From Chaetoceros tenuissimus (lineage: Eukaryota; Bacillariophyta; Thalassiosirophyceae; Chaetocerotales; Chaetocerotaceae), in the NCBI GenBank assembly GCA_021927905.1, contig BLLK01000061.1:235810-299809 (forward strand): DNA of 64,000 nt, given 5' to 3'. The notes under the pieces were generated by a model, which had not been told where the DNA came from, did not search any database, and saw nothing but the letters and a program-made list of their open reading frames with translations. Position 1 is the stretch's first letter; the number at the start of each line of letters is the position of its first letter. A program made the position numbers and the translations under genes. This document shows positions 22,989 through 45,793 of this stretch, one piece after another.

Positions 22989-24032
22989 TTACAATCTATC
23001 AATCGCCTCGGCAGTTGGTGGGCTGGGAGCTTTTGCATACACTTGTACATCGTTGATATTATTTACCTGAAATTCAAAACGATCCTCTGCACTCCAACAG
23101 CATGTGCATGTATAGCAGCAAGTCTGGCAACACTTGTCGCTGTCGTTTGTTGCATTTTGAAGGAGATTTGCATAATGAATATCATTCAGCTCGTGTACTC
23201 CAGTTGACTCGTTCAAAGTCGCTACTACCTTTGGAAAGTAATAGTAGGAAAGTTTGCTGTTATCGCACTCATATGGATCTGTTCCAACCCACGATAGACG
23301 CGCAATATCGCCAGGTTTGATATTATCAATAATCTTCCCGTCTGGCGTAGTAAACTCATCTCCTTCTTGAACAATGTACATGAACAGATAATTTCCTACT
23401 TTTTCTGGTGAAGACAGTGTATACAATGCAAGCCATTTTCCATCAGGCGATGCCTGTACAGTTGCAAAACGAGTTTGTTGAAAGAATCCAAAAGCAGCCC
23501 CCCAGCAAGAGTTGTCCACAGTCCAATCATACTTGAGAGATCCAAGCCCGATGACACGACCTCCTTCAACTTGAGAACGCCAAGCCCATCTATTGAATGA
23601 AACTAAAGTTTCAGGTGCAACATTATCCTCAGTCCAGATGAGTTTGTTGCGAAAAGGTTCAGGAATGAATTGTGAATTAGGACTTGGTCCAAGCATATCT
23701 TTGACCAGCTTGCTACTATCGTCACTGATGCGCGATCTAGTCTTTTTTGCTCCCGGCACACAACGATGGAGAGGCTTACAGAACAATGATCTATTCCACC
23801 ACCACAGTGGAATGTTTAAGTTACTATCGAAGAAAGATTTTCGTTGAGGAGGATCGTATACTCTTGGAGGAGCTGGATTCTTTGCAAGGAACTTGTCCCA
23901 ATCAATAATTTCGAACAATTCATGCTGTGGGTTCCAGTAATCAGGATCCATATACTCCTTTGGATACCTTGCACTACTTGAAGATGGAGCAGGCGGCAGA
24001 CTGCTTTGATAATCTGTATTTGAAGTTGCCAT
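22989..24032 (-). CDS. Uncharacterised protein with a C-terminal Cys cluster
   Basis: Single-exon ORF of 347 aa that I could not assign to a family. The N-terminus is Ser/Pro-rich, followed by aromatic-rich stretches (YMDPDYWNPQHELFEIIDWDKFL and NIPLWWWNRSLF regions). The middle, around 180-270, looks like a compact beta domain (RFATVQASPDGKWLALYTL, GDIARLSWVGTD). Near 300-313 is a dense run, CCQTCCYTCTCCW, with eight Cys in thirteen residues, reminiscent of metal-binding or palmitoylated clusters. No signal peptide or transmembrane helix is visible. It reads in the same direction as the TRP-like channel. The function is unknown. Confidence 0.7.
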   Translation of the reverse strand: MATSNTDYQSSLPPAPSSSSARYPKEYMDPDYWNPQHELFEIIDWDKFLAKNPAPPRVYDPPQRKSFFDSNLNIPLWWWNRSLFCKPLHRCVPGAKKTRSRISDDSSKLVKDMLGPSPNSQFIPEPFRNKLIWTEDNVAPETLVSFNRWAWRSQVEGGRVIGLGSLKYDWTVDNSCWGAAFGFFQQTRFATVQASPDGKWLALYTLSSPEKVGNYLFMYIVQEGDEFTTPDGKIIDNIKPGDIARLSWVGTDPYECDNSKLSYYYFPKVVATLNESTGVHELNDIHYANLLQNATNDSDKCCQTCCYTCTCCWSAEDRFEFQVNNINDVQVYAKAPSPPTAEAIDRL

Positions 24033-24159
24033 CTTGATAGTTTTTTGAAAGATGTCCGATGAGGTATCTTTCCTAGAGTAGGTTTATGCGAACAATACGA
24101 GTAGAAGGTAAAAGAGTGTAAGGTAGACGACGTGGAAAAGTGGGTCAACCCTGACCCAC

Positions 24160-25057
24160 TTTTGGCAAAAGTGGGTCAACCCTGACCCACTTCCATTCTA
24201 CGACGTTTTCTACGTGAGAAACATACCACAGCCACTTCATATGTAACAACTTACTTTTTCACATGCTTCTAGGAATTACATACACATGAACATGTTTTCT
24301 TATATTATATAGTTCAGTACTGTAATGTCTGATTCTACTGAACTTCACTTTATTTATGAGATAAGTACGTATTTTACCCGCCAAAATCGGTCAAAAAGCC
24401 GAAAATAGCCACTTTTAGGGTCTCAAATAAATTCTAAAAAAAATCGCCAGTATAAGATGACAACCGTTTTCATCTTTTAATATCAAAAAGAAGCTTACCA
24501 CATGCAATATCAATCGATTCTAATAGTATATGTATGTTTAATTTCAATTGAGATTTGAGGATATATACAGATTTCTCATCATAGGTTATTGATCTTAGCC
24601 AATCAGATTGCTCTATTTGGTCAAAGATACGACTCAATTAGGTAAAATGTTGTCTTTGTGCACCTCCGTTTCTTCGTTTTAGTCATGTAGAGAGGTATTA
24701 TTAGTGTAATCTGTAATCTATGTCTTGTATACACTTATTCTCAATATAATATGGCTTGAATGAAGTCTCCATAGGATTTTTAGATGAGAAATAGGGGCCG
24801 CAAAGTCTCATATTTCCTCGTTTTTGAAGGTTTTAGTACCTTCAAAAAGTACTCTAAACTGTCGAACAGAGAAATTAGCGTGTGCAGACATTTTCTATAT
24901 ACACATCAGATTCATGCTATAATACCGCTTTATTGATGAAGGTAAATAAAAAATGTTTTATATGAGTACATTGTTTAATTCACCTCTGTGGTATGTTTCG
25001 CACGTAGAAAACGTCGTAGAATGGAAGTGGGTCAGGGTTGACCCACTTTTGCCAAAA
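24160..25057. mobile_element. Non-autonomous terminal-inverted-repeat (MITE-like) element
   Basis: About 898 bp bounded by near-perfect inverted repeats of 72 bp: 24160-24231 and the reverse complement at 24986-25057, differing at one internal base. Each TIR holds a small perfect hairpin, GTGGGTCA-ACCC-TGACCCAC. The left end carries an extra copy of this hairpin just outside (24137-24159). The interior has no supportable ORF and is AT-rich. No certain target-site duplication could be seen, so the exact ends are uncertain. The element sits between the Cys-cluster gene and the hydrolase gene. Confidence 0.75.
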
Positions 25058-25662
25058 AACCCGCGAAATCCGTACGAGGGATATAAATAAAATGTGAGCT
25101 AATTGGTCGTGTTTACGAGTAGAAAAAAGTATCTTTACCGACGCGCAATTTCATAACCTATTCTTATTCTATTCTGTAAATAGTATGGATGTAATGAATA
25201 GATGAAGAAGATGAATCGATGAAGATATGATATGAAATGATGAGATCTCATTGAATCAAAACGAATCATCCACATTAATCGACTTAAGTCCAATTAATTG
25301 TGTATCAGGGTGAAGAACTCTATCTAGCAGTTTGTGCGATAGAAGAGGAAGAATCATTAGACTATAAACTTTGCTTCATAAACACAATCCAACAAAGGCA
25401 TCTGAATGGCAGAAGAGGAGGCAGGCATCATTAGACTATCAAACTTTGCTTCAAACTTTCCAGACGAAATCAAAGAAAAGCAAGAGTGGTGTTGTAGTGG
25501 ACTTGGATAAACATTTTGAAAAACAGCGCAAGAGAAAAGAATGTGAGAAAATGAAGAAAAAGGAAGCTGAAAATAATCTTCAAAAGGTTTCAACCAGTAC
25601 CAGAATCTAATCTGATTGACTCTTCCAAAGGCAAAAAAGAAATTGGTGCAAGATATAGAGTG
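25058..25662. other. Intergenic region upstream of hydrolase, with imperfect direct repeat
   Basis: A segment near 25353-25378 (ATCATTAGACTATAAACTTT and on) recurs with one inserted base at 25427-25453, each preceded by AGAAGAGGA. A Lys-rich 79-codon ORF (25371-25610) and an open stretch in the hydrolase frame from 25555 could be parts of an upstream exon or a decayed 5' end. Neither is convincing. Confidence 0.4.
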
Positions 25663-27081
25663 ATGGGACATGGTCAACGAGACATCAGGGGTTCGAATGA
25701 TGAAAGTGCAGCGCCATCATATTCATTTGGACAAAAACCCAAGCCATTAGTTTTGGCATTCATTTTATATATCGTTGCGCAGGAACAAAGGAAAAGGAAA
25801 CAATTGACTTCATTGCCACAAGTTTATCACCAAGATACTGCAGAGAATCAAAGAATAGTATCACTCATGTCTGCGGTGCTTCAACGCAAGTATAAACCAA
25901 GTTTATTCATAGGAACAAGATCCTTTCTGAATTCATCATTTGCCTATTGTAGACTAGCACATACCAACTACGAAAGAAAAAGAGAGATATTGAGAATGCC
26001 CAGAGATGGAGCACAGATAGCTTTAGACTATGAGTCTCCTACAGGGATGAATCCAAACTTTGGTAATATTACTGATCAAACCATTGTCTTGATTCTTCAT
26101 GGTGTAAACACAGATACTTCATTTGGATACATGAAAGCTATCATGAAACATTGTACAAACCAAGGCTATGTGGCAATTGGTATGAATGCACGGTCATATG
26201 GAAACATTCCAATGAAGACATGTCGATTTATGAACTCAGCCTATACAAACGACCTAAGGTCCACAGTGGAGATCCTATCAAATCGATATACAAAGTCAAA
26301 ACTATTTCTGGTAGGTTTCTCAATGGGTGCCAATACTCTGGTGAAGTTTTTGGGAGAGTCCTCTGATAACTTGCCTTCTAATCTTGTTGGAGCTGTTTCT
26401 CTTGCAAATCCGTTCATTATCCAGCACTCGAAACTTAAGTTTCCCATGTCAAATTTAATGACAGCTGGAACAAGAAAACATATGAAATCACATGCTGAAA
26501 CAATAAGGCAAATGAGTGATGATAGTGTCGAAGATGCGTTCAAGAAAGCTACATCATTTCGACAATCAAGTAGTCTTTCTGATATTTCGAAATACACGTC
26601 ACCATTTATGATTCGCAATTCGGTAGAATATCCATATCAAAACTCTATCGGCTACTCAAGCAATGAAGAATATTGGAGAGAAGCGTCAAGTCGAAACTAC
26701 GTAGCAAATGTATCAATCCCTCTTTTGATTGTATTCGCTGATGACGATGTACTCACAGCTGACTCAACAATAAGGTCACTTGGTGCATGTCTTTCAAATC
26801 CAAACATTATAATTGCACGGACGCCTTGTGGCGGTCATATGGGCTGGCATACTTCAAATTGGAATAATCCATTTGGGTCATACTGTTTCACTTCTGCAAA
26901 TGATTCAAACATGAATTGGTCTGAAAGAACAGTTACAAAGTTCATCTCTGCTGTTTTATGGAAAGGAAATAATGAGTTACATGAATCTGATGGTTCTTGG
27001 CAAAAAATTGTGAGAGATAGCAAAAAGAATGGAACGGAAATGGCAAAAACGATTTCGCAAAACATGAAATCGAAATTGTAA
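25663..27081 (+). CDS. Alpha/beta hydrolase of the ABHD1/3 (YheT) type
   Basis: ORF of 472 aa from the first in-frame ATG. The fold and catalytic triad are visible: IVLILHGVNTDT (strand beta3 and oxyanion region), LVGFSMGANTLVKFLGE with the GxSxG nucleophile (Ser220), a candidate acid in LLIVFADDDVLTAD, and the candidate His in CGGHMGWH. The NARSYG segment after the HG loop is typical of the ABHD1/2/3 and YheT group, which hydrolyse acyl esters or phospholipids. A short hydrophobic stretch near 28-40 (PLVLAFILYIVA) may anchor it in a membrane, as in ABHD3. The frame is open for about 36 codons upstream of the ATG, so an upstream exon is possible. Confidence 0.83.
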   Translation: MGHGQRDIRGSNDESAAPSYSFGQKPKPLVLAFILYIVAQEQRKRKQLTSLPQVYHQDTAENQRIVSLMSAVLQRKYKPSLFIGTRSFLNSSFAYCRLAHTNYERKREILRMPRDGAQIALDYESPTGMNPNFGNITDQTIVLILHGVNTDTSFGYMKAIMKHCTNQGYVAIGMNARSYGNIPMKTCRFMNSAYTNDLRSTVEILSNRYTKSKLFLVGFSMGANTLVKFLGESSDNLPSNLVGAVSLANPFIIQHSKLKFPMSNLMTAGTRKHMKSHAETIRQMSDDSVEDAFKKATSFRQSSSLSDISKYTSPFMIRNSVEYPYQNSIGYSSNEEYWREASSRNYVANVSIPLLIVFADDDVLTADSTIRSLGACLSNPNIIIARTPCGGHMGWHTSNWNNPFGSYCFTSANDSNMNWSERTVTKFISAVLWKGNNELHESDGSWQKIVRDSKKNGTEMAKTISQNMKSKL

Positions 27082-27289
27082 TTAGCTAAATTAGGTGTAA
27101 TCTATACGTGTCAAAATGTCAAAAAGGGTTCCACCTTCAGAGAAAGATGAGGGTGTGAGAGAGTGATTAGAGAGAAGCTGAGAACCAAAATGAAAGGAGA
27201 ATATGGAAGTAGAAAGTAGAGCTGTGGCAAACTCTACTTCGATCTGCACACACAACCAAGTGTTAATAAAGTCATAGAGAGATTTAATT

Positions 27290-28236
27290 ATGGGGAAAGC
27301 GGATCTTGATCCATTGACTAGGTATGGGCAGACTTTCGTAGAGGAAACTCCAGCCCTGGTGAAAGCAAAGCTATCTGAGCTAAATGATGCTTTGGCGAAG
27401 GAAACTGGAAAGGATGTAAAGTTCTACAATGATGCGAGAGACAAATGTCCTGACGAAGTCAATGACACCTTTAAATTGAAATTTTTACGATGCGAAGTCT
27501 TTCGAGTAAATGTAAGTATGTCTAGCTAGCAGGCTTCTAGTATTATTGTAGGATTGAATATTTACAACTGATTTCTTCATTATTTGGCGCACTTAAGGAT
27601 GCTGTAAAGAGAATTATCAAATACTGGAAGAATAGAGTGGAAATTTTTGAGGAGAAAGCATTCATGCCATTAACTCTTGATAAAGCATTGAAAGGCGACG
27701 AGAAATCTCTTGAAATTTCAGTGCTTAGAGACACACATTGCAAAGATGATGGAGGCCGTGCAATCTTGTTCTTTGACCCTGGACGTCTGCCAAAGAATCG
27801 TGACGAATATGATAAAAAGTCAATGGTACGTTCATTCTGGTATACATTGCATTCAGTATTGGAAGATGGGGAAGTACAAAGAAAGGGGTGTGTTATTATA
27901 GGGCATCCAAAGCATGCTCCATCCAAGCCTGATTTTGAACTGGAAAAAATGCAAGTCGGAGCCCTGCGTGGTTCTATACCGATCCGTATTGGCGCAATTC
28001 ATATCTGCCACCCACCGTGGTTTTTCGAACTAGTATGGCCAGTATTTAAATTGATGATTGGTTCTGTTTTAAGGAAAAGGGTAAACATTCACTCTGGGAA
28101 AGACGAAAAAATCCTAGGTAATCTCGAAAGTAAGTTTGGTATCCCAAAAGAAAAGATACCAACGGATATGAGTGGAGGTTTACTGCAACTTGACCATATG
28201 GCTTGGTTAGAAGAAAGGAGAAAAGCTGGACTGTGA
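27290..28236 (+). CDS. CRAL-TRIO (Sec14-like) lipid-binding domain protein
   Basis: Two exons, 27290..27511 and 27598..28236, with an 86-bp GTAAGT...TTAAG intron; the product is 286 aa. The N-terminal part (LKFLRCEVFRVNDAVKRIIKYW) resembles the CRAL-TRIO-N helix bundle (FLRxxxxxV..A). The lipid-binding lobe follows: GGRAILFFDPGRLP, GCVIIGHPKHAP, the gate-region-like GSIPIRIGAIHICHPPWFFELVWPVFKLMIG and LRKRVNIHSG. Proteins of this family carry phosphoinositides, phosphatidylcholine, tocopherol or retinoids between membranes. A membrane-targeting (GOLD or PH) domain is absent. The ligand is unknown. Confidence 0.82.
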
Positions 28237-28768
28237 ATATGTGGATAGATTAGAGAGGAGGGGGATATGCTCGAATGACATTGAGAGAAATGGACAGCAG
28301 ATCGTAGAAATAATTCTAAAAATTAAATTAGTCGACTTCATTTTCATTCTAGCGAAAGTTGATTCGACACTCAACATACCTATCAATTTTTCATGGATCT
28401 CGTTTTGATAAAGCATTTGATTTTCATTGTATAAAGTACTTCTTCGCTACTCCCTGTGAAAAGTTCTAATCGAAACTGTAAATCGTATGTTATGATAGTA
28501 TGTAGTAATATAATATTACTATGGATGCGAGATGAATTCAAATTATTTGCTTAGAGAAAAATTGGCGCACCATGTGCAATAAAGAGAGAGAAGATAGAAC
28601 TTTCTTTTGTGCAACAAAGAGAGAGAAGTAGAACTTTCTTTGACCTTTTTTCAAAACAAATAAGGTATGAAAATTTGGAAAGAGAAATGATTCCGCCATT
28701 TTGAAAAACACGCTCTTTCGTTGCAATCGACCTCTTAGTTCATAATTTCGCAAAAGATAAATAAAACC
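28237..28768. promoter_or_regulatory. Upstream region of silaffin-like gene with 34-bp tandem repeat
   Basis: Contains a tandem, slightly diverged duplication: 28574-28608 and 28609-28641, each GTGCAA(T/C)AAAGAGAGAGAAG followed by AGAACTTTCTTT. It ends 127 bp upstream of the silaffin-like start codon and is a plausible but untested promoter element. Confidence 0.5.
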
Positions 28769-30247
28769 ATGAAGACGGCTTTCCTTTTAAACGTTGTACT
28801 TTTGCTTGCAGTAGTTTCTGCCTCTCTTGTATCCAACACAAAGGTAAGTAATTCGAACGAAATCCAAACATCATCCTTTCAATATGATCCTCATGAAAAG
28901 CCATATTCAAAATAGAATATTTCAATGATGAGAGGATCAAGAAAGCTGGTGAAATCAGATAAGCAGATTGACGGTAGTTCAAAATCTCCCAAAAGCAGCA
29001 AGGAACCAAAGTCTCGTATCCTCAAGACTACTAAGGCTGATAGCTCAAAATCTCCAAAGAGCAGTGATGAGGTAAGAAGTAGCAAGGAACCAAAGTCTCG
29101 CATCCTCAAGACTACTAAGGCTGATAGCTCAAAGTCTCCCAAGAGCAGCAAGGAACCAAAGTCTCGTATCCTCAAGAGTAGCTCAAAATCTCCAAAGAGC
29201 AGTGATGAAGGAAGAAGTAGCAAGGAACCAAAGTCTCGCATCCTCAAGACTACTAAGGCTGATAGCTCAAAATCTCCAAAGAGCAGCAAGGAACCAAAGT
29301 CTCGTATCCTCAAGAGTAGCTCAAAATCTCCAAAGAGCAGTGATGAAGGAAGAAGTAGCAAGGAACCAAAGTCTCGTATCCTCAAGAGTAGCTCAAAATC
29401 TCCAAAGAGCAGTGATGAAGGAAGAAGTAGCAAGGAACCAAAGTCTCGTATCCTCAAGAGTAGCTCAAAATCTCCAAAGAGCAGTGATGAGGTAAGAAGT
29501 AGCAAGGAACCAAAGTCTCGTATCCTCAAGAGTAGCTCAAAATCTCCAAAGAGCAGTGATGAGGTAAGAAGTAGCAAGGAACCAAAGTCTCGCATCCTCA
29601 AGACTACTAAGGCTGATAGCTCAAAATCTCCCAAGAGCAGCAAGGAACCAAAGTCTCGTATCCTCAAGACTACTAAGGCTGATAGCTCAAAATCTCCAAA
29701 GAGCAGTGATAAAGCAAAGAGCAGCAACGAACCAAAGTCTCGCATCCTCAAGACTACTAAGGCTGATAGCTCAAAATCTCCAAAGAGCAGCAAGGAACCA
29801 AAGTCTCGTATCCTCAAGAGTAGCTCAAAATCTCCAAAGAGCAGCGATGAAGCAAAGAGCAGCAAGGAACCAAAGTCTCGTATCCTCAAGAGTAGCTCAA
29901 AATCTCCAAAGAGCAGTGATGAAGGAAGAAGTAGCAAGGAACCAAAGTCTCGCATCCTCAAGACTACTAAGGCTGATAGCTCAAAATCTCCAAAGAGCAG
30001 CAAGGAACCAAAGTCTCGTATCCTCAAGACTACTAAGGCTGATAGCTCAAAATCTCCAAAGAGCAGTGATGAAGGAAGAAGTAGCAAGGAACCAAAGTCT
30101 CGCATCCTCAAGACTACTAAGGCTGATAGCTCAAAATCTCCAAAGAGCAGCAAGGAACCAAAGTCTCGTATCCTCAAGAGTAGCTCAAAATCTCCAAAGA
30201 GCAGCGATGAAGCAAAGAGCAGCAAGGAACCAAAGGCGAAGTTTTGA
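28769..30247 (+). CDS. Silaffin-like secreted Ser/Lys-rich repeat precursor
   Basis: Two exons, 28769..28843 and 28916..30247, joined in frame over a 72-bp GTAAGT...AATAG intron; the product is 468 aa. Exon 1 encodes a classic signal peptide, MKTAFLLNVVLLLAVVSA, then SLVSNTK. Exon 2 encodes a basic leader and 17 units of 22, 24 or 28 residues, each ending in SRIL, plus a final unit ending KAKF. A unit core reads SSKSPKSSKEPKSRIL, placing Lys every third residue (KxxKxxKxxK). Diatom silaffins are secreted silica-forming proteins rich in Ser and Lys. In Cylindrotheca Sil1p each repeat ends in RRIL, which is removed on processing, and RXL sites are cut in other diatom silica proteins. Here RIL fits RXL, predicting cleavage into 17 or more short peptides carrying modified Lys and phospho-Ser. 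Similarity may reflect common descent or convergence. Confidence 0.85.
28979..30231 (+). repeat. Coding tandem repeat array (66/72/84-bp units) of the silaffin-like gene
   Basis: Three unit types alternate: KTTKAD-type short (22 aa), KTTKAD-type long (28 aa, with an extra DE(V/G)RSS or DKAKSS block) and KSSS-type (24 aa). Units are nearly identical at the DNA level, differing mainly at AAGG/AAGC and GTAAGA/GGAAGA positions. This indicates recent expansion or gene conversion. Confidence 0.95.
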
Positions 30248-30353
30248 ATATAGAGGGTTGTGAAATTATCTGACCTTCTAACGCTTAAATATGTAATTTT
30301 GAGTTAACAAATGCAGTGATAACATCTACCTTTACTGTTGTGCATCAAGGTAC

Positions 30354-30533
30354 TTACTTTTGAATCAATTGTTTCAAGTCTTTTTGTAGTCTCTTTTCAA
30401 AGTTTGGAAATGACGTGTTGCCACCGCTTAGTACGATATTGTTATAGAGACGTCTTCTTGTATCGACTGGACATGATTGGATCGTATTATCCACCATCTC
30501 TGCCAATGACTCTGTAAAGGATTCGTCAAGAAG
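30354..30533 (-). pseudogene. Isolated Arp3-like actin-related protein exon
   Basis: On the minus strand a 58-residue frame reads LLDESFTESLAEMVDNTIQ, then CPVDTRRRLYNNIVLSGGNT and FEKRLQKDLKQLIQK. It matches the C-terminal part of actin-related proteins, especially Arp3 ([20 protein letters not shown] pattern). It is preceded by TTATCGTAG and followed by AAAGTAAGTA, so it keeps splice-like borders. No other actin-fold exon is visible on either side: the silaffin-like gene ends at 30247, and the next gene begins near 30.7 kb on the other strand. Read as a relic or displaced exon. A very long-intron gene is less likely. Confidence 0.7.
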
Positions 30534-30782
30534 CTACGATAAACAATGACATGATTGTGTTAGACCAGATCGATTAATAGATGTATTACGATCATTCATA
30601 AGGGTCCTAATTTCTAGCCTTGAGAATATGTCCACTGCAGATATCAAACAGTCAATTACAGTGTTACCATTATTGACTGTATGATAATGAAATTTGATTT
30701 TTCAAATTTTTTACAGTCAGAGGTCGATTTGTCACTGGATCATCTCATAAATCGAAAAGAAGCAAACTCAAAGCAAAAGAGA

Positions 30783-33414
30783 ATGTCTACTCATAATGAT
30801 CACATTCAAATCCTACACACTATCCGTGGCCGAAACGTAGAGATCCCCAATGGCCTTGATCTTGGATTCCTTGATGATGTACTTTCAACAGAACTTTTTC
30901 TTTCGATTCCGCGTCATTTGCAACAGAATGCGCTTTGCGGTAAGAAAATTGTATTATCCTTAGTTATTATTCTATTCTGATTGTCTACTGACCATACTTT
31001 TACTAACATCTCCATAGCATTGTGTGTTGTGACAAGTGGAAACAGATTCCAAAGTAACGAGGAGTTTTGGGAGTGTGCACGTGATGTCTTCCTTGGATTC
31101 GATCGTGAAAATCAATTCAACTTTGCGGAGTGTTCTGGACCCTTTGGTCTAGACACAATGTTCTTACATGATCGTAGAGCACGAATTTCTTTTCGTGAGA
31201 TTTATTCTCGAAAAAAGATAGATGCCTTGCAAGGTAAGTTTCATTTTGAAGAAGTAAGAAATAGAATTGTTTGGTTGGTTTCTAACTATTCCGTTTTTAG
31301 AACTTCATCGCAGGAGTAATTTTGAACGTAATCCAATACAAAGGAAAGTTTTTGCAAAGAGTATTTTTAATTCATATCCAACGAAGATTGATATGATTGT
31401 AGGGACAACAATATACCTTCCTCGTTCGATTAGGCAGGATGACCTTCTGAGTGCCGATGTTTCAAAGGCTCTCTACGCCATTCGCAAATCCGAACGTGCT
31501 AAGGCAGTGTGTGGTAAGTAAAGAAGTGTTCATCAGAACTAATGATGATAACATAGTACTAACATGAATTTCTACAAAGCGTTTAATGATAGATTGAGGG
31601 GAAGGAATTTCAACATGCGTGAACTACAATCACTTGCAGTATCTACGTTTCAAGAGTATTCATCTACTTCAACAGATTGCAGCCATCAACAAATCAACTT
31701 TGATGTAGAAGATGATTATCCGTCCACTCTTTCTCCAAATCAGTCATCATCTTCCAACGATTTGCAACAAGTCAACTTTGATGAAGTTACTGCTCCATCT
31801 ACTCTTTCTCCAAACCAGTCATTGACATCAAGTACAAAAGATACTCAAGACATGGTAGTGGAAGATAACCAAACTAAAGCAGCAGAGGTAGCAGTATCGG
31901 AGGTTAAAATTGTAAGTAATGCGGAATATTCAATTTGTTGCCCATTCTTTTCCAACATCTAACATATTTGATTCATGTAGAGCATGTCGGCGGAGCTGTC
32001 AGATTTGACGAGTACTAGAATTCCTAGAAAACCCTCTAAAAAGGAGGAGGAAAAGGCCGATGAGAGAGAGGGAAAGGCCAACCGTCTTTATCAACTAACT
32101 ATGGATACACCTCAGTTTGTGCATTACAATATGACGGAGGCTGAGCGTCTTGAGGCAGCAAAGACATCCACCGTGTGCCCTGAATTGTCTAAAAAGTTCT
32201 GCAACAAGTATGGCAAAGCGGGGGAAGATGACCTAAAGTATTGGAAGGACATGAAGGTTCCAGGAGCAGAGGACCTGAATCTTCCAGGAGCAGTGATCAA
32301 TGTTATCTTGTCTCAATTCCTCTCTTCGACTTTCAAGGCTGATGAATATCCGAACAGCGGTACTCGTATTGAGTTTCTACATCCAAAAGTCATACAAATT
32401 GTAGTTGACAGGTACCTAGAGTTTGGAGCTATTGTAGGTCCATTAACTTATCATGGCAATTGGAGACCTGGTGACCTTGTTCATGTGTATGATATGGCCT
32501 TCTCTCCATTGGATGGAGGAATTTCTTCCATTTCTCATATGCGTAGCCTTTATGATGGCAAGAAAGGGGTCTACCGCCAAGCCTGTAAGAATCATCTAGG
32601 GATGCAAGATGCTCCGAGTGTCAGAATGCAAATTTTCGATGAACTCCAGTTTCTTTTGCCTCATACGTTCAACGATTCATGGAAAGATTTTGGGAAGAGT
32701 CTTCGACCGGATCATCCTCTGTCTGTGCTTGTGAAGAAACTTGTTCATATTTCTCCGTTGATTAGGAAGGACCTTGTGCAAGCCATTCTTTCAGTTATGG
32801 ACGAACATTGTGCAAAGCCAGTTCTCATTGTAAATCGTGTTTCCGAGGAAACAAAGAAGAAATTCACCAACTACGTTAGTTTTCTCAAGATACTACGCCC
32901 TGAATTGCCATATGTGGAATTATATCACCCAACCTGGTTTGCGAAAAACAAGATACCGTGGCTAGTTCAATGGATCAAAGTGACTGACGCTACAGTTGAA
33001 ATTATATTTCATTTCTGTGGAGAGAAGTACTTCATTGGAGAGAAGGAGGCAACAAAGGAAGAAGTGAGGGAGATGCTTGGAGACAAAGGCATGGAATACA
33101 TTTTCAAGAATGGGTACAATGGCCTTCGCATTGAACCTTATACTGAAGATGAAAGGGAGGAAATCAAGAATAGAAAGGCTGGTACTGCGTTTGTGAACGG
33201 GAGTACTTTCGGTGTTCCTAAGGGAACGAAGTTGACTGATGAAGAGAAAGCCTCTAGGGGGTTTCAGAAGGGGTCTATTCCATGGAATAAGGGACTGAAG
33301 ATGACTGTTGAACAGAAGGCCGCAAGAAAGCGAACAGCTGGGAAGAATGGGAATACCATTGGGTTTCAGAAAGGAAATTATTTTGGTCGGTCAAATAAAA
33401 AGAGTAAGAAGTAA
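30783..33414 (+). CDS. Unassigned five-exon gene with NUMOD3-like C-terminal tail
   Basis: Exons 30783..30939, 31018..31233, 31301..31513, 31580..31911 and 31981..33414 join in frame over four GT-AG introns (66-78 bp) to give 783 aa. I do not recognise the main domain. Exons 1-3 share a theme (LDLGFLDDVLSTELFLSIP, FGLDTMFLHDRRARISFRE, IVGTTIYLPRSIRQDDLLSA). Exon 4 is Ser/Thr/Asp/Gln-rich with two copies of PSTLSPNQS. Exon 5 begins with charged residues, then a compact region with DEYPNSGTRIEFLHPKVIQ and GDLVHVYDMAFSPLDGG. The last 70 residues repeat a basic NUMOD3-like pattern: FGVPKGTKLTDEEKASRGF, FQKGSIPWNKGLKMT and FQKGNYFG, as found beside homing-endonuclease domains and thought to bind DNA. 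No HNH or GIY-YIG catalytic core is evident. The frame is open upstream to 30681, so the start is uncertain. Confidence 0.72.
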
Positions 33415-33953
33415 GAAGATATAATCTAGAGTCTACTTTGTTAGAGAATTTACTTTAGATTAGAACACCATCACAAATGTAACAGTCAAATATCAAACTG
33501 AGCCAAAGGGGGAGGAGAAAAAAGTAAGGTACGCTATGTGTCTTTTCTTGACGCGTCCTTTTTCTTCCTTTATCAATGTAGATGTAAACTTAAAGAGAAT
33601 GGAAAACTGATTCTCCCTAGCTTTCTTTTTTGCTTTTCTTTTTGCTCTTCTACACCTAAGTCATAAATTGATTTTCCCTCCTTTTTGCATCTGATTTCAC
33701 TGATCAGATTTCAAAGACATTCTTTCATTTTGTTCAGGTAAGTTGCTAAACCACTGTAGACAAATCTGAGGAAGTGCAGTAGGATCATAAATGTCCACAT
33801 CGTTCCTCCTCGATGAGATTTATATGTCTAACCATCATCTAGATTCGGAATGTGATTCACCAATTCTATTCAACATAGACACTAGAATCTAAAAGTTTGA
33901 GGTATAATAGTAGAAGAAGATTAGATTTGTTAAAAGTTTGAAACGTCCCCTCT
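33415..33953. other. Intergenic region, convergent 3' ends
   Basis: About 540 bp between convergent genes; it holds 3' UTRs and pyrimidine-rich runs near 33600-33690. No gene or RNA was recognised. Confidence 0.4.
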
Positions 33954-35067
33954 TCATTTCGCCTTTATAGCTTCGACGATGAACATTGGATCACGATATT
34001 CATTTGGACCCTCAGCTGCAGTAATGTCAAATGCTTTCACATCTTTGAATCCACCAGCATATTTCAGATATCCATTAATCAACTCCAAATGCTGTCTATC
34101 ATTCATCTGCAACCACATTGCAATCGCCTTGGAGGGGAAACAACGATTACTCTGCGAAATTATGACTTTTCCACCAGGTTTCAAAACACGATTTACTTCC
34201 TTCAATACCTCAATGGGTTCAATCAAGTAATCAATAGATACAACACATGTCACCACATCGAAACTTGCATCATCATAAGGTAATTTCGCTTCAATGTTTA
34301 GGTTTTTAGGTGTAAAGTCGGTCAATTGATCATTCGCTTTCAATTCTAATGCATTCATACCCGTTGCAGAAATGCGCTTCATGATCTTTGGAAATTCAAG
34401 TGGATAATGACTGTTGAAGAATATGCAGGTGAAATCATGAAGAATATGATTTGAAAAGTATGAGCAATAAAGTAATTATCATGTATATGCATGATGGAAC
34501 GCGTACATACCTTACCCACGAAGAACAAATGTCTAAAATACTACTTCCCTTTGGAATATTTTTTCTATAGTATTGAGTCAATGATGCAACCGCAGCCTCA
34601 TCGATATGATACACAAATCTTGGGATTGCATAAAAACTCCCATCATCCTGTTGATCTGCTCTTAAAAAGTCTTCTGGCTTAAAAGGTGGTTCCTCTGGCC
34701 ATTCTTTCACCAGAGATACTGGACGTATAGGGAATTGCCAAGGAGTACTATCTCCTGTGAAACGACGTACTAATAATCCTCTTGTTCGTGGATTGCCATC
34801 TGGTCCATCTCCATATTTCATTTGTATTTCAGAATCAATGAATCTTGGGTTGCTATTTTGTGTTGCTGCACATGCTGGTTCTGCAGCTTTGACGAAAGGA
34901 GAAAAGGTGGCTGTGAATGTAGCCGCTCGTAGAAATTGCGCTCGAGAAGAAGACATGGAAAGAGTCGTAGAAGTGAGAATACGAGGCGAGTGAGATAAGG
35001 ATGGTCCCCAAGCAGAGACGAGAGATAGTTGCTGAATGAAAAGAAGTGATTGAATCAGAGATCTCAT
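33954..35067 (-). CDS. Plastid-targeted SAM-dependent methyltransferase (type 11)
   Basis: Two exons, complement(33954..34410, 34511..35067), with a 100-bp GTATGT...ACAG intron; the product is 337 aa. The class I methyltransferase core is split by the intron: IPKGSSILDICSSWVSHYPLEFP is the SAM-binding motif I region, followed by LPYDDASFDVVTCVVSIDYLIEP and VLKEVNRVLKPGGKVIISQSNRCFP. The N-terminus is MRSLIQSLLFIQQLSLVSA, then WGPSLSHSPR: a signal peptide whose predicted cleavage site is followed by Trp-Gly-Pro, matching the diatom ASAFAP rule (an aromatic residue at +1), then a Ser/Arg-rich transit peptide. A second hydrophobic/Ala stretch (FVKAAEPACAA) could be a thylakoid-type signal. Start chosen at 35067 for this presequence; the frame is open further upstream. 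The substrate is unknown. Confidence 0.85.
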
Positions 35068-35307
35068 TATTTGGACTAGCTTCTTTCTGTTTTGATTTGT
35101 GAGCCTATGAATTGAAATATTGATGTAGATCGGCTTGAAATGAAAGCAGACAGACAAGCTTTTCAATATTAAAGTAATAGTAATGGTGTAGGGATTGTGT
35201 GAGTCAGTTAGACAATCAACTGAAGATCTTTTTTCGTGAAACAAGAAACAAGATATCATTAGTATTATGATTGTATGTTTTCGTATCCATTTCTTCCCAC
35301 TCCTTTC

Positions 35308-35425
35308 AGGAACGACCATACAATCATGAGAACACCGATACCCGTCTGCTCATCGAAGTTAAGCATGATCTGGTCGAGGTAGTACTACGGTGGGGGACCA
35401 CGTTGGAATTCTCGATGTTGTTCTT
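35308..35425 (+). rRNA. 5S ribosomal RNA
   Basis: A 118-nt sequence with the eukaryotic 5S layout. The 5' end AGGAACGACCATAC pairs over 9 bp with the 3' end GTTGTTCTT (helix I). The internal promoter is clear: a box A-like GAAGTTAAGCATGATCTGG and a box C-like GGTAGTACTACGGTGGG and GACC. Helix and loop words GAACACCGATACCCGTCTG and TCATCGAAGTTAAGCA match known 5S consensus positions. It stands alone in this window, outside any rDNA repeat. Confidence 0.9.
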
Positions 35426-35450
35426 GAAATCTTCTTTTGATTTTTTTTAC
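35426..35450 (+). terminator. Pol III terminator for 5S rRNA
   Basis: Run of eight T (about 35441-35448) within 25 bp of the 5S 3' end, the usual RNA polymerase III stop. Confidence 0.75.
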
Positions 35451-35941
35451 GTACTTGAGTCAAGACCCTCTTTTTCTTGCATTCATAATCAAGATATATT
35501 GTTCTTTACGCTAAAGAATGAATTGAGTCCAAAACAATGCAAAATATAGGAATTTGTCAGATGAAATTTTTATCATTTTTAACAGTACATATAGATTCAT
35601 TTCATCCCCTTTTCGCATCGTAGCTTTTCAATCATTACGTATGAGGTGCCCACTAGTGCATCAAGTTTTCATGAATTTCTCATAGCGATTAAATACAAAA
35701 CAGTTTAAATAAGAAACTTTATCGTGCTCTTATATGAATGCTTACACTCACTGAATCATGTGCGTGCATTGAAAATCGAGGATCTAAAAAATAAAAAATA
35801 CAGTGAGGGGGGTTTTTATTAAGATCACCTTTTTGGTCTGTCATACAGCCGTTTCAAAGAAGAAAGAAAACCACAACTTTTCCACTTTTCCACTTTTCCT
35901 CATCCCACCATGTTATGTATTGAAAACATATTAAACAAAGC
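35451..35941. other. Intergenic region between 5S rRNA and helicase gene
   Basis: About 490 bp, AT-rich, with the promoter of the DHX57-like gene. No further RNA or ORF was recognised. Confidence 0.4.
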
Positions 35942-38799
35942 ATGGGAAAGAAAAACAAAGCCTCCTCTTCGTCCAACAAGAAGGCTCCCAAGTGCACGTG
36001 TGACCATCCTTACCAATGCTCTTGTGGAAACCGTCCCGAACGTCCCTCCAGAGGTCATAAATGGGTGAGTTGCAGTTACATGATGGTAGAAGCAAGCGGT
36101 GGTAGATTGTCAATTCAGCATCAATACTTGCATGTATGATTTATTCACTCATCCCTAATGATTATTATGTTCCATTCTTCAGGATCCAGAGACTCAGCAG
36201 TGGGGAGGCAAAGGGCACAAGCAAAAGGGGGCATCAGGTACAGCAGCAGCCGTTGGAACAGCTGCAAAAGTAACAACCAAGGGATCAACATCCATTGAAC
36301 AATGGCAAAAGCTGCCTTCGACCCTTCTACAAGATGTTGTCAAAAAAGAAAAGCGTCCTCCTCCTAAATATAAATCTCTCAAAAATCATGGAGGTCAATT
36401 TTTATACAGAGTCATTATTCAAGATGCAAAAGCGAGTAAACGAGGTGGTGAACATGACATTATTCTTGTCCCCGCTCATTCTGCCAAGAATGAAGAACAG
36501 GCAAAAGAAGAAGCAGCTCTTCTAGGTCTCTTGCATTTGACACCATCCATCCCTCATGAAAGGAAGCTTCCAGAGCCTTATAAAACTACCTGGTTGAATG
36601 CATTGGAGGCTAAAAAGAATCAAAAGAAGGATAGTAAGAAAGCAGTAGAACAAGATTCATCGACCAAGACTCCTAGTGCTACTGGCGATGCCGCCAAAGC
36701 CAACTCTTCGAACTTGGTATCAGCAAAAAACTTTAGTTCTTTTCATGAAAAACGAAAACAAATAGAAGAAAAGCGTAAAGCTCGCAATGCTAAAATTAGA
36801 AGACATGAAGCTATACGGATGGCAAATCGCGATGTTCAGGTGTTTATGTCGGCACAAATACGAAAGCAGATTGAGACTTTGTTACGGGGTGATGCTGACT
36901 TAGATTTACTCAAGCTTTTAACAGAGGAAAAAGGTATGGATGAAGAAGACATCGACGACGAGGAAGAAGAAGATGTTACTTTTGTGTATGTGTTGAAAAG
37001 GTTGGTACATGAAGGATTTACTAAAAGTCAGGCTAAAGCTGGATTTACTGCTGTGAAGAAGGATCCATCTGCTGCATTGAAAAACATGAGCGATTTGGAA
37101 GATCAATACATGGATAAATTTTATGAAGAGAGTCTGCAGTGGTTATGTGTTCATTTGGATGAAGATCAGTTGCCAGAAGGTTTTGATCCTAGAGGAAGGA
37201 CACTGGATGTGGTTAAACCAAAATCATTCAAAACAAACCAATTGAGTACAAGTCCAAAGGAACAAGATAGTGAACAGAATAGTGAAACTTTGAAAGAAGT
37301 GCAATCTATTGTTCAAAAGTTTGGAGTTTCGTTGGAAGAAGCATCGTGTTTGAATAGCTCTGGAAAAGATACACAGCAAGAATTCTGGAACGCATTATGT
37401 CAATTGAATACCATAGATTCATCAGAATTTTGTTTTGGGAAAGACCTGGGAAGTGGCGATTTTGAACAAAATAGAAGTATCGTAGAGGAGGAGGTCGAGC
37501 TTCTACAAGCAATGTTTCCGGAAGAAGAAGATTTGCAAATATCAAACAATGTGGATTCGGAACAAAGATCCATTGTGGATATGAAAATTCCTTTTCAAGC
37601 GATGGATGAACAGAAGTATACCATTTCAATTCAATATTATGATGGGCATTATCCAGCAAAACATCCAATGGTATTTATTCATGGTAAATGGGATAATTTT
37701 CCTCCAGGTAAAGGTACATTTGTGCACTCTGAAATTATTAAGCAAATGAAGGAAATTCCTGTACACGAACCAATGGTGTTTGAGATATTCAATTTTATTC
37801 AGGAAATATTGCAAAATGATGTGGAAACAAGTATCAAGAATGGACCAGAGTCTTTGTTATTGCCATTTGTCAAAGGCGGAGACAAATTTCAAACAAAAGC
37901 AAAGCCAAAAGTGGACAAAGCGACTGTGCAATCAAAAAGACCGAAAAGGATTTCACCTCGTTCATCGTTTAAACCACGAAAGAGAGTCAAGAGTTTCTTT
38001 TGGAGCAAGAAGCCACATGAGACTCCTGTGGCTACAGCTTTCCCTAAGTTACGAAGTGATATCAAGGTAGCAAGAGAGCGACTGCCAGCAGCAAAGGCAC
38101 GTTCCCAATTCCTGCAAATCATGCATGATGCAGAGCAGAAAGATAGAGTTGTTTTAATTACAGGAGAAACAGGTTGTGGGAAAACCACTCAAATACCTCA
38201 ATTCATTCTAGAAGAATCTCCGAAAGATGCAAAGATTATTGTTGCTCAACCAAGACGTTTGGCCGCAACAGGCGTAGCTGATCGAGTTGCACAAGAGCGA
38301 GGTGAAGCTCGACCTGGAGAAGGTAGTGTGGGCTATGTAGTGAGAGGAGACTCTAAAGTGTCCAATGATTGTCGACTGATGTTTTGTACAACCGGAGTTC
38401 TTCTTAGACAGCTACAGACTGAAGGAGCTTTAGATTGTATTTCCCATATTGTGATTGATGAAGTCCACGAACGACATCTAGATACTGATATCCTTCTTGC
38501 TATTCTGAAGGAAACGAGACCCGCGCACTTGAATGTAGTTCTAATGTCTGCAACAATGGATGCCGATCGATTTGCTGCATACTGGGGATCTTCCACACCG
38601 CGTATGCACATCCCTGGCTTCACCCATCCAGTCAAAGATTTATTTCTTGACGATGTGTTGAGTCTTACTGGCTACATTCCTCCAAAGAAAGGCAAGAAGA
38701 AGAAATTTGGTAATTGGAGCAATCCTTCCACAAGGAAGAAAACAGCATGGAATGACTCCGAACTATCCGATGATGATAATGATTATGACGAAATGGATC
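35942..38799 (+). CDS. DHX57-like DEAH-box RNA helicase, 5' part (copy A, cut by assembly gap)
   Basis: Exons 35942..36064 and 36183..38799, with a 118-bp GTGAGT...TTCAG intron, encode 913 residues before the gap. Order: a Cys-rich start (CTCDHPYQCSCG), a Lys/Glu coiled region, a UBA-like helical segment ending LQWLCVHLDEDQLPEGFDPRG, an RWD domain from about residue 470 (VEEEVELLQAMFPEEED), then the helicase core with motif I GETGCGKTTQ (about 701), motif Ia AQPRRLAA, motif II DEVH (about 798) and motif III SAT. This UBA-RWD-DEAH layout is that of DHX57/DHX29-type helicases, which act in translation or RNA remodelling. Joined to 52936-53298 and 53366-54807, the frame stays open for 1514 codons, showing what an intact gene would contain. 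Confidence 0.87.
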
Positions 38800-38899
38800 N
38801 NNNNNNNNNNNNNNNNNNNNNNNNNNNNNNNNNNNNNNNNNNNNNNNNNNNNNNNNNNNNNNNNNNNNNNNNNNNNNNNNNNNNNNNNNNNNNNNNNNN
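38800..38899. other. Assembly gap of 100 N
   Basis: Exactly 100 N, the conventional size for a scaffold gap of unknown length. On its right the sequence resumes inside the helicase 3' region (equivalent to 54361 onwards). Comparison with the copy at 52.6-54.8 kb implies that at least about 1.4 kb of helicase sequence is missing here. Confidence 0.95.
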
Positions 38900-39347
38900 C
38901 TACACGAGATCAAGTGGTGACAAAGATAGCTCTGTAGACTCATCGAATTTGACCAAACATTATCATGGAACATCAGAGGCAAGATGCTTTGTGCACCCAA
39001 GCTCTTTTACGTTTTCAGTTGGATCCTATACATGTCCTTGGATAGTATACTACCAACTAGTGCGAACAAGTAAGCCTTTCATGCGAGATGTTACTGAATG
39101 TTCGAATTATGACCTTTTGCTTTTTGGAGGAAACATTGAGGTATCTGCTTCTGATGGAGTGATTGTAGTCGATGACTACGTAAGGATGTCAGCAAATGCT
39201 AGAATTGCGGCACTAATTTCTGGTTTAAGGAAGAGGGTTGATAATCTTCTTACAAAAAAGATTGCTGAGCCTTCATTTGACGTTGCAAAGAGTGTAGAAA
39301 TGAAACTCATTGTGAAACTGTTGAGAACGGATGGAATGGGTCAGTGA
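38900..39347 (+). CDS. DHX57-like helicase, C-terminal fragment (after gap)
   Basis: The last 148 codons of the helicase, including the OB-fold-like region (FVHPSSFTFSVGSYTCPWIVYYQLVRTSKPFMRDV region) and the end LLRTDGMGQ. Identical in sequence to the ends of the other copies at 43457, 47557 and 54807. Whether it belongs to copy A cannot be decided because of the gap. Confidence 0.8.
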
Positions 39348-40255: not shown

Positions 40256-41453
40256 AGCAATTGATTCAATTTGATTCCTTGTTGCAGAAAAAGATTTTGA
40301 GAGTTTATGTGTTCCAAACGTAGTTTCATTGCGTTTGTGGTTTTGAAAACTGTATAGGGTCCATGAGCCATCATTGGTGTACTATTCAATACTTTCTCAG
40401 ATAGAGTATTTATTAACTAGAATCCATATTTTTAGATGGGGAAGAATTAGTTTTATTCTTAGTAAAATAAGTACATCAATTTGATACTTGTTCTCTTATG
40501 TAAATAAAGAATTGCAAACAAGAATCAAATCAGAAATGTGAAATATTGATGTCCCATAAGAATTTTTCGACTTCGACGAACATTCCTATCAGTATTCTCG
40601 CCTTCCTTTCAAATTAAGGTACAATACTGTCTGAAATGCGACTCTGTGAATCATCTTAACCCTTTTCTGCCTAGTTGGGACTCGAAAAATCAAAGCGTCG
40701 TGTATCGCAATGTGCATAGGTAAATCACAATGTGCAAGCAAAGTGCACTAAATGGCCTATTTCCTACATCATCATGACGTTGCTTCCAAACTCCATAATA
40801 TAGTTCCGTCACCCTAGAGGAAAAAATCTAAACTCACTCTTATGATTAACGAATTATTTATAATTGATTTAATTGAATCTTGGAAGTTTATCGCCATACT
40901 TGCCCTACGTATTTTTTTCTTCTCTGCAATTATACTTCCGCATGGTGTTTCGACTTCAAACAGTGGTTTGTCATCTTTTTTGAGTGCTAACATGTCGAAA
41001 AATCATCTCTGAAAATACATATCGATTTCTACGCACCAAATTAGATTTGATCTGATGATAGTCCGAATTGAAATGAAAGTACTCGAATACGTATAATTTC
41101 AACTGAGTAATAAAATGATGCTATGTTTAAAATCTAAAAAAATACTTTTTGCACTATATTGTCACTTTGTTCTGCCTTTGACAATATTCACGCTATGGTA
41201 ATATTACCTTGCCTTTCATTCTATTCTCATGAATAATTGCATGGTGTGAGAACTGATGAGTTGCTGTTGAAGCACTGTTATTTCCAATATGGCTGCCTGA
41301 TTCAATTTTTCACAATTGGACACGGGAGCTATGTCATGAGAGCAAATGTTCATGAGCTGGCGAAAAAACGCTGAATTTCTTTCATGTAACTTCAGATTCC
41401 ATCGATTTCACGCGTATAAATTCATTTCCATTACGTGAAGGAAGGGAGAAATC
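40256..41453. other. Spacer of the repeat unit
   Basis: About 1.2 kb, AT-rich, with no supportable gene. The same spacer recurs at 44366-45553, and its first 400 bp also at 62408-62800, where it stops. Confidence 0.55.
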
Positions 41454-41693
41454 ATGTCAGAGCGAGAGGAGGGAGTACAACACAAGCCGACCGAATTAGC
41501 ATTTACGCCTGCTTTACATCTGGCTCTGCCTAACCTGACAAAGCGACTGTGCAATCAAAAAGACCGAAAAGGATTTCACCTCGTTCATCGTTTAAACCAC
41601 GAAAGAGAGTCAAGAGTTTCTTTTGGAGCAAGAAGCCACATGAGACTCCTGTGGCTACAGCTTTCCCTAAGTTACGAAGTGATATCAAGGTAG
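41454..41693 (+). pseudogene. Chimeric ORF at helicase-fragment junction, copy 1
   Basis: A plausible gene start (MSEREEGVQHKPTELAFTPA) with upstream leader runs for 28 codons, then at about 41537 meets helicase sequence in the wrong frame and stops after 79 codons. The first 28 codons are not helicase and look like the truncated beginning of another gene. An identical copy lies at 45554-45793. Confidence 0.6.
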
Positions 41694-43457
41694 CAAGAGA
41701 GCGACTGCCAGCAGCAAAGGCACGTTCCCAATTCCTGCAAATCATGCATGATGCAGAGCAGAAAGATAGAGTTGTTTTAATTACAGGAGAAACAGGTTGT
41801 GGGAAAACCACTCAAATACCTCAATTCATTCTAGAAGAATCTCCGAAAGATGCAAAGATTATTGTTGCTCAACCAAGACGTTTGGCCGCAACAGGCGTAG
41901 CTGATCGAGTTGCACAAGAGCGAGGTGAAGCTCGACCTGGAGAAGGTAGTGTGGGCTATGTAGTGAGAGGAGACTCTAAAGTGTCCAATGATTGTCGACT
42001 GATGTTTTGTACAACCGGAGTTCTTCTTAGACAGCTACAGACTGAAGGAGCTTTAGATTGTATTTCCCATATTGTGATTGATGAAGTCCACGAACGACAT
42101 CTAGATACTGATATCCTTCTTGCAAGACAGTCTAAAACAACGAAGAGGAAGAGCTGGAAGAGTCAGGCCCGGTACTTGTTACAAATTGATCTCTAGAGAA
42201 ACTTTCGAAAGTTTGCCTGAACATGGAGAGCCAGAAATAAAGAGGTGTGCATTGGATCAGACTTTACTTTCTTTAATTTTCTTGGGCTTAGAGCGGGGTT
42301 CCGGAACATTCTTGTCAAAGCTCATAGATCCTCCATCTTTTACATCTATAGAATCTGCAATATTTAGTCTTGAGAAACTTGGTGCTCTCTTCAAATCAAA
42401 GATGGAAGAAGAAATTCGGGTATCACTAACACCACTAGGTGTTCATTTGGCTGGAATTCCAGCTCCTCCAAGTATTGGTAAGCTTCTTGTCTATGGCTCG
42501 CTTCTAGGGTGTAGATCAGCTGCACTTGCTATTGCTGCTGGACTATCTGGAGGTAAGAGTCCGTTCTTAAGAATAGACCGTCGATCTATCGACACAGACA
42601 CAAAGGAAGGGTATAAGAATCAGATGGTTCTAGACGAGCGAGACAAACTTTTTGACTCGGTTGGAAATTCGGATCATGCCATACTATCCGCGATATACAA
42701 TGGATGGGATAGTCTTTCTGGTGGAGGAGGCGTCAAGAGAAAATATCTTGAATCACTGGGACTATCTGTGAATGCCATGAGAGATATGAAACAACTTGTA
42801 AGTCAATTAGATGGTGCTCTAGCTAGTGGAGGCTTTTACTCTACATCTGAATCCGATTGTAATGGAAAATCTTGGAGAATCATAAGAAGTTGTGTAGTAG
42901 CATCATTTGCACCTGCCCAAATTGCAAGAGTCCAACGATCTTCGACAAAGTATGCAGAGACTGTTGAAGGAGCGGTGGAAAAGGAGGGTGAAGCAAAGGA
43001 GTTGAAATTCTACACGAGATCAAGTGGTGACAAAGATAGCTCTGTAGACTCATCGAATTTGACCAAACATTATCATGGAACATCAGAGGCAAGATGCTTT
43101 GTGCACCCAAGCTCTTTTACGTTTTCAGTTGGATCCTATACATGTCCTTGGATAGTATACTACCAACTAGTGCGAACAAGTAAGCCTTTCATGCGAGATG
43201 TTACTGAATGTTCGAATTATGACCTTTTGCTTTTTGGAGGAAACATTGAGGTATCTGCTTCTGATGGAGTGATTGTAGTCGATGACTACGTAAGGATGTC
43301 AGCAAATGCTAGAATTGCGGCACTAATTTCTGGTTTAAGGAAGAGGGTTGATAATCTTCTTACAAAAAAGATTGCTGAGCCTTCATTTGACGTTGCAAAG
43401 AGTGTAGAAATGAAACTCATTGTGAAACTGTTGAGAACGGATGGAATGGGTCAGTGA
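41538..43457 (+). pseudogene. DHX57-like helicase pseudogene, copy B (internal deletion, frameshift)
   Basis: Matches copy A from 37915 to 38500, then jumps at 42123/42124 to sequence equivalent to 53474. About 837 bp of the gene (770 coding) is missing, taking motifs III to V and one intron. Both sides share GC at the join (TTGC or TCGC before AAGACAG). The lost coding length is not a multiple of three, so translation ends at 42196 in the wrong frame. The remainder is open from about 42120 to 43457 and still holds motif VI (QRRGRAGRVRPGTCY). The N-terminal half of the gene, including the UBA-like and RWD regions, is absent. Not expected to make a working helicase. Confidence 0.9.
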
Positions 43458-43792
43458 TTCTGTGTCATAGAGGAAGCTTGTACTTTTCAATAATAAGCTC
43501 GAATTTCATCATTACTCCCATTTTCTTTTCTTTTTTAAGTTTGAGAATGGGAAATCAAAGACCGACGAAGAAACGTCCAAAACAAATTCAGTGACTATTC
43601 TGCTGAAGTTTAGCTCATTGACAGGAGTCAATAAGGTGAAATAGAAGAAACTTCAAGACCAAATTGAAGTTCCAAGAACTTCCCATCATTATGCGTTTTG
43701 CGACAAACATTGGTGCTGGTGCTGCTCACTGCTCACTGCTCAAGTACTACACATGTTCACGTCATAAAATCAAAAAGAACATCAAACTAACA

Positions 43793-45553: not shown

Positions 45554-45793
45554 ATGTCAGAGCGAGAGGAGGGAGTACAACACAAGCCGACCGAATTAGC
45601 ATTTACGCCTGCTTTACATCTGGCTCTGCCTAACCTGACAAAGCGACTGTGCAATCAAAAAGACCGAAAAGGATTTCACCTCGTTCATCGTTTAAACCAC
45701 GAAAGAGAGTCAAGAGTTTCTTTTGGAGCAAGAAGCCACATGAGACTCCTGTGGCTACAGCTTTCCCTAAGTTACGAAGTGATATCAAGGTAG
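45554..45793 (+). pseudogene. Chimeric ORF at helicase-fragment junction, copy 2
   Basis: Identical to the ORF at 41454-41693: a 28-codon foreign gene start fused out of frame to helicase sequence. Confidence 0.6.

Follow-up and report, generated by a model that had tools for sequence, protein, structure and literature searches.

In Cylindrotheca, the silaffin precursor Sil1p is built from repeat units ending in RRIL or RRNL; according to the pertinent sections of PMC4557024, these units are cut out as peptides that, once mature, no longer carry those residues. The same sections report that the RXL tripeptide closing a unit, found also in frustulins, cingulins and silacidins, has been proposed as a general recognition site, and they describe cingulins as proteins in which Lys-rich parts alternate with Trp/Tyr-rich parts. 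An RXL-ending stretch behind the signal peptide is presented in part of PMC5525289 as a feature common to many silica-associated proteins, among them Sin1 with its RXL domain; there, removal of the RXL domain is said to have been observed in silaffins, and the protease that cuts silica-protein precursors at RXL is called yet unknown. A passage of PMC5647440 adds that RXL-based precursor processing has yet to be proven. The silaffin-like screen outlined in portions of PMC5501833 looks for KXXK motifs in which X is S or G and the repeats lie 1-6 residues apart; the same portions give a rule for pentalysine clusters, five non-consecutive Lys within 12-14 residues.

Within the window, by which we mean the entire 64,000-nucleotide stretch of Chaetoceros tenuissimus DNA that was analyzed (G+C = 39.3%), we read from the sequence a two-exon gene on the + strand at 28769-30247 with a product of 468 aa. 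Its features are as follows.

28769..28843, + strand: exon 1, 75 nt, 25 codons, encoding MKTAFLLNVVLLLAVVSASLVSNTK
Within exon 1, 28769..28843, + strand: predicted signal peptide MKTAFLLNVVLLLAVVSA, followed by SLVSNTK; cut predicted between VSA and SLV by the -3/-1 rule
28844..28915, + strand: predicted intron, 72 nt, GT-AG (GTAAGT...AATAG), phase 0
28916..30247, + strand: exon 2, 443 codons, comprising the end of the pro-peptide, the repeat array, the C-terminal piece and the stop TGA
28940..28948, + strand: RKL, aa 34-36, the RXL site that ends the short pro-peptide
28949..29023, + strand: first unit VKSDKQIDGSSKSPKSSKEPKSRIL, ending SRIL
29024..30175, + strand: 16 SRIL-ending units (22 aa x6, 24 aa x7, 28 aa x3), the last RIL at 30167-30175
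30176..30244, + strand: C-terminal unit KSSSKSPKSSDEAKSSKEPKAKF, 23 aa, ending KEPKAKF, with no RIL and no hydrophobic tail

The preliminary description had placed a signal peptide on a short exon of its own, and this arrangement held up in the sequence: splicing of the predicted 72-nt GT-AG intron would join exon 1 to an in-frame exon 2. The predicted cleavage site is based on the residues that signal peptides carry at positions -3 and -1 of their cut sites. The two strands of the window together contain 33 open ATG..GTAAGT stretches 45-150 nt long, and exon 1 is the most hydrophobic of them; it is also able to splice in frame into the 443-codon frame of exon 2. Taken together, these two properties indicate that the signal exon is no chance pick. 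Its hydrophobic N-terminus supplies the predicted ER signal peptide expected of a silaffin. Candidate introns of comparable size were seen nearby: one neighboring gene may have a GTAAGT intron measuring either 86 or 98 nt, similar to the 72 nt here, and a second neighboring gene has candidate introns of 78 nt and of 67 or 80 nt. A 35-bp tandem pair (TGTGCAACAAAGAGAGAGAAG...) at 28573-28641, some 130 bases ahead of the start codon, is perhaps part of a promoter.

The 468-aa product contains 143 Ser (31%) and 107 Lys (23%), has no Trp, Tyr, Cys or His, and has a pI of about 10.5 when the signal peptide is left out; it is of low complexity and likely disordered. Residues 19-36 form a short, basic stretch of 18 residues that ends in RKL, an eighteenth RXL shortly after the signal peptide that had at first been overlooked. 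In 2000 composition shuffles the RXL count averaged 1.15 and never exceeded 5, compared with 18 here. The 17 units ending in SRIL that were originally claimed are all present on recounting (the first unit and 16 more). These units are near-identical and homogenized, and the RIL residues are invariant in all 16 aligned RIL-ending units, with the Arg codon alternating synonymously between CGT and CGC (10 to 6).

Unit architecture proved more varied than the two lengths and two charge classes first proposed. Three lengths occur (22, 24 and 28 aa). Two cassettes vary: one, after the first Lys of the unit, reads either TTKAD (T) or S, and the other is a D-[EK]-x-x-S-S block that is present or absent. 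Three of the four possible combinations are seen (T without block, 6; S with block, 7; T with block, 3; S without block, 0). Net charge is nearly equal among the units (+4 or +5 across the 16, and +3 or +4 once RIL is removed), so the two charge classes do not hold. The claim of a Lys at every third residue survives in part, since KxxKxxKxxK occurs seven times, in the six 22-aa units and in the N-terminal piece; the D-[EK]-x-x-S-S block interrupts it in the others. Three DEVR units also contain the word AGGTAAG (29070, 29490 and 29562), identical to that at the exon-1 donor (28842), and these may be cryptic 5' splice sites.

Several other features lie in the same window. On the - strand, at 30354-30533, an actin-related fragment closest to Arp3 runs for 59 codons and ends at 30354; the TAG ahead of it could be a splice acceptor. 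An Rfam search over 24000-36000 returned 5S rRNA only, and the 5S rRNA gene, at 35308-35426 on the + strand, overlaps the start of an antisense ORF at 34435-35319. The stretch at 41051-43600, which we take to be helicase-like, is repeated 4100 bases downstream (region 41051-47700), with 41549-43457 being 100% identical to 45649-47557, and the ORFs at 36531-39347 and 52665-54807 carry the same protein text around an N gap (38800-38899) and a reverse-transcriptase-like ORF (49046-52366). The repeated stretches around 41051-47700 are possibly an assembly artefact or a recent duplication. The long ORF at 57385-61701 presumably encodes a copia-type retroelement polyprotein.

The window forms the end of contig C47. 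Relatives were sought with Ser/Lys/Pro tract queries across the same 41,027,912-base assembly, and the best 30 places of one listing were read. At least ten proteins, the window gene included, repeat Ser/Lys/Pro (KxxK) units bounded by RXL; the other nine each have a signal-like start and are listed here.

L054, C17: five RRL; SDSEDSRRL followed by SSKASKSP
L059 and L083, C33:168070-170392, opposite strands: near-identical Ser/Lys/Gly proteins, head to head ~0.7 kb apart; RHL, then RQL twice
L084, C33: RQL, then RRL three times, each as ERRRL or DERRRL after SSD; SSDDEERRRL followed by EESSSKGSSS
L049, C54: RRL, RRL, RKL
L053, C32: RNL, then RIL followed by KHTKTTKAPK
L063, C32: RNL twice
L065, C32: RQL twice
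L048, C13: RHL, RAL

All nine resemble the window gene in combining repeated RXL-bounded KxxK units with a signal-like N-terminus. The first RXL behind the signal peptide falls at residue 24-36 in eight of them and at residue 52 in L049, and the word SSKSPKSSK is common to the window protein, L059, L083 and L084. They differ from it in having 2-5 RXL each rather than 18, in the sequences of their units, and in being read, start included, in one open frame. The pair on C33 (L059/L083) is a candidate for silaffin/cingulin-like proteins. Five of the ten (the window gene, L054, L059, L083 and L084) exceed all 500 shuffles in RXL count, and the counts of the remaining five equal the shuffle maximum. 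When an RXL-KxxK polyprotein set is defined by a signal peptide, an RXL in residues 20-65 and at least two RXL-bounded KxxK units, the window gene has all of these properties, the set having been defined with this gene inside it. To judge by sequence, then, the gene belongs to a wider RXL-KxxK protein set of its own genome, one that is not described among the literature matches listed.

To place these proteins against controls, a table of 24 was assembled from picks among loci L013-L082 plus five further stretches, rather than from all places found. It leaves out duplicates, loci lacking a usable signal-like in-frame Met (L016, L017, L019, L027, L028, L032 and others), L085, where no KxxK-rich frame was found, and L051, which is without RXL. 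An RXL within residues 20-65 is present in 18 of the 24 (18 of 25 with L051 counted in), compared with none of seven control ORFs with a hydrophobic start, a contrast that leans towards the silaffin-like reading because set members were accepted at a hydrophobicity of 1.9 or by eye, versus 2.3 for the controls, and because several queries contained RXL. The other six proteins of the table have no RXL in that interval. A query without RXL yielded 20 matches at 16 distinct places, 11 of them with a signal-like start, and 7 of these 11 carry an RXL in residues 20-65.

Public data extend the set. A profile built from six of the same-genome proteins retrieved 14 related proteins (P0001 to P0014), of which six (P0003-P0006, P0013 and P0014) carry at least two RXL in their KxxK part. 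P0001 is a Chaetoceros tenuissimus protein, and the ORF of L043 on C58 is identical to a record named 'predicted protein [Chaetoceros tenuissimus]'. P0002, P0007 and P0010 show a signal-like start, RRL and a KxxK tract. The architecture diverges behind this shared N-terminus in P0002 and P0010, where a Cys-containing region of globular appearance comes after the tract. Within the genome itself, KxxK/Ser tracts form tails or linkers of larger proteins at L013, L015 and L024, which have a signal-like start, and at L027 and L032, where none was seen in frame. Given these larger proteins, and the globular-looking regions behind the tracts of P0002 and P0010, a KxxK/Ser tract alone is no sign of silica.

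The preliminary description knew of no account of this exact repeat family, which agrees with the searches made. In a protein database, none of 7999 candidates scored for sharing most words with the whole product reached an E value of 0.001 or below, and none of 84 candidates for residues 1-72 reached an E value of 1 or below. Among viral contigs, a protein search produced five pattern matches, none of which was confirmed, and a DNA-word search found nothing; a phage search recovered no relative of the repeat, and Pfam assigned no family to the 468-aa protein. The same genome holds no second copy of the exact repeat, only weak matches to Ser/Lys tracts. In the open literature on silaffin, RXL and Chaetoceros, neither the window gene nor a Chaetoceros RXL polyprotein family appears in any title or abstract start among the matches listed, and the words silaffin and silicon are absent from the Chaetoceros tenuissimus genome paper (PMC8613185).

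Matches to the silicon transporter family PF03842 (Silic_transp) were also sought. There were 11 in the same genome, all above the cut-off, compared with a single match, below the cut-off, among 14 control genomes. By these matches the genome encodes silicon transporters, which fits a diatom. Three of the matches are adjacent at C17:442278-446357 (L011 and L012), each listed with a 1459-codon open frame; the third contains an internal TGA and TAG.

The reading that we favor, and hold to be reasonably probable on the sequence evidence, is that the gene encodes a secreted, silaffin-like pre-pro-polyprotein; cleavage at RXL along the secretory path would turn it into about 17 cationic Ser/Lys peptides destined for the silica wall. 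We infer secretion and cutting from the architecture of the protein. By analogy with Cylindrotheca Sil1p, the product would enter the ER, where its signal peptide would be removed. An RXL endoprotease in the ER/Golgi or the silica deposition vesicle would then take off the RKL-ending pro-peptide and cut behind each of the 17 RIL sites, and the RIL would be trimmed off, as RRIL is from the Cylindrotheca silaffins. The resulting peptides, mostly of 19, 21 or 25 residues and with a net charge of +3 to +4 before modification, are predicted to include KTTKADSSKSPKSSKEPKS (19 residues), KSSSKSPKSSDEGRSSKEPKS (21 residues) and a 25-residue form. Each would offer 8-10 Ser/Thr as targets of phosphorylation and its KxxK lysines as targets of methyl/polyamine modification; the zwitterionic peptides so formed could gather at silica and assist its precipitation or patterning in the wall.

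One competing explanation, which we regard as rather unlikely, retains secretion and dispenses with the cutting. The protein would stay at full length and act, in a cingulin-like role, as a scaffold of Ser/Lys repeats within the wall matrix, with only the pro-peptide RKL being used and the RILs being a structural part of a homogenized repeat. The near-identity of the units fits such a scaffold, as do the relatives L014, L025 and L043, in which a single RXL stands behind the signal peptide and ahead of an uncut KxxK tract. However, in ten proteins, the window gene included, RXL sits at unit boundaries with differing X and differing flanks (RIL, RRL, RQL, RNL, RHL), a pattern that makes little sense unless the tripeptide has an importance of its own, and the window protein has no Trp/Tyr-rich regions of the cingulin kind. 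Cutting could also occur in a cationic polyprotein secreted for another role, such as a surface coat, an adhesive or the release of antimicrobial-type peptides, in which case RXL would be a general secretory processing signal of the lineage rather than a mark of silica. Oomycete RXLR proteins share the RXL word. KxxK/Ser tracts and RXL occur on assorted proteins of this genome, L013 and L014 having hydrophobic C-terminal tails and L020 having tract and tail without RXL, and the globular-looking regions of P0002 and P0010 point the same way. We nonetheless consider a role outside silica unlikely: the relatives L083 and L084 resemble silaffin/cingulin-type KSSK/KGSSSSK sequence, with 32 and 36 pentalysine windows, respectively, and a passage of PMC5647440 (2017) places RXL cleavage sites in biosilica-associated proteins only.

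The two remaining alternatives concern the gene model. In-frame Met codons at positions 4 and 5 of exon 2 (ORF 28925-30247) would permit a start at MMRGSRKL, leaving exon 1 unused and yielding an intracellular or nuclear Lys/Ser-rich protein. We find this highly improbable, since the ATG..GTAAGT exon that ranks first of 33 in hydrophobicity across the window would splice in frame onto precisely this ORF, the position of RKL suits a secreted pro-protein, and the other nine repeated-unit proteins carry a signal-like start within the same open frame. Nor is it easy to dismiss coding capacity altogether and see in the array a minisatellite that codes for nothing, with several frames staying open because its period is a multiple of three. 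Such frames do exist (an antisense ORF of 444 codons at 28891-30225 and one of 185 codons in a different + frame), and synonymous changes hardly separate the + frame, with 7 of 12, from the antisense ORF, with 6 of 12. Yet 8 of the 11 variable positions in the aligned units are third codon positions of the + frame, RIL is invariant, the signal exon joins in frame, and the order signal peptide-RXL-KxxK is common to similar proteins at other loci; a minisatellite without a gene is therefore scarcely credible.

Returning to the RXL-cut, silaffin-like polyprotein, we tentatively extend it to the genome as a whole, as a real possibility that falls short of a probable one: Chaetoceros may build its silica wall or setae from RXL-cut polyproteins encoded by a multigene set, whose members would jointly yield dozens of distinct short Ser/Lys peptides. 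Among them, the window gene would be the extreme member, a combinatorial precursor of 17 peptides in which two cassettes set the peptide mix, and the donor-like word AG/GTAAG in three DEVR units means that splicing could vary that mix. The 17 identical sites, together with at least nine same-genome relatives in which X varies, provide a substrate series with which to search for the RXL protease. The series could also help to ask whether silica patterning in Chaetoceros depends on peptide cocktails, the setae of this diatom offering a morphological test case. The expected peptides are predictable and directly searchable by mass spectrometry.

Compared with known silica proteins, the window protein is silaffin-like in plan, yet it failed two strict silaffin-like sequence tests. 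The K[SG][SG]K screen found nine KSSK separated by gaps of 20-114 residues in the window protein (55 KXXK occur if X is left free), and no five Lys fall within 12-14 residues, the shortest span being 15 (24 windows); membership in the silaffin pentalysine-cluster class is thus rejected. The silaffin-like polyprotein proposed at the outset accordingly stands in its plan, with the RKL of the pro-peptide, the silicon transporters of the genome and the at least ten repeated RXL-KxxK proteins in its favor, and fails in its strict lysine spacing. With zero Trp or Tyr in 468 residues, the protein is not a cingulin. Silacidins, reportedly described by Wenzl et al. as highly acidic phosphopeptides, are likewise rejected, the window protein being basic. 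A search of the same genome with a Sil1p sequence, run without a positive control, gave no match.

Likenesses extend across several families. Cingulins, as treated in parts of PMC4557024 and PMC9650480, are also repetitive, KXXK-bearing and secreted to the wall, and the silaffin-like proteins of Thalassiosira pseudonana share with the window protein a signal peptide, many KXXK and RXL (18 sites here), according to portions of PMC5501833. Relative to Sil1p, the window protein has unit ends of SRIL in place of RRIL/RRNL and 17 internal sites in place of 7 units; its lysines occur as KxxK with Pro/Glu/Thr, it has no Tyr, and the acidic 88-residue N-terminal domain of Sil1p (residues 20-107) is replaced by 18 basic residues (19-36) ending in RKL. 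In its position this RKL resembles the RXL domains that sections of PMC5525289 and PMC5647440 portray in Sin1 and other silica proteins. Sil1p of Cylindrotheca fusiformis, as far as it is laid out in the relevant part of PMC4557024, shares the overall plan: a signal peptide, an RXL behind an N-terminal part (RKL at 34-36 in the window protein), and basic Ser/Lys units ending in R-I-L (17 SRIL here).
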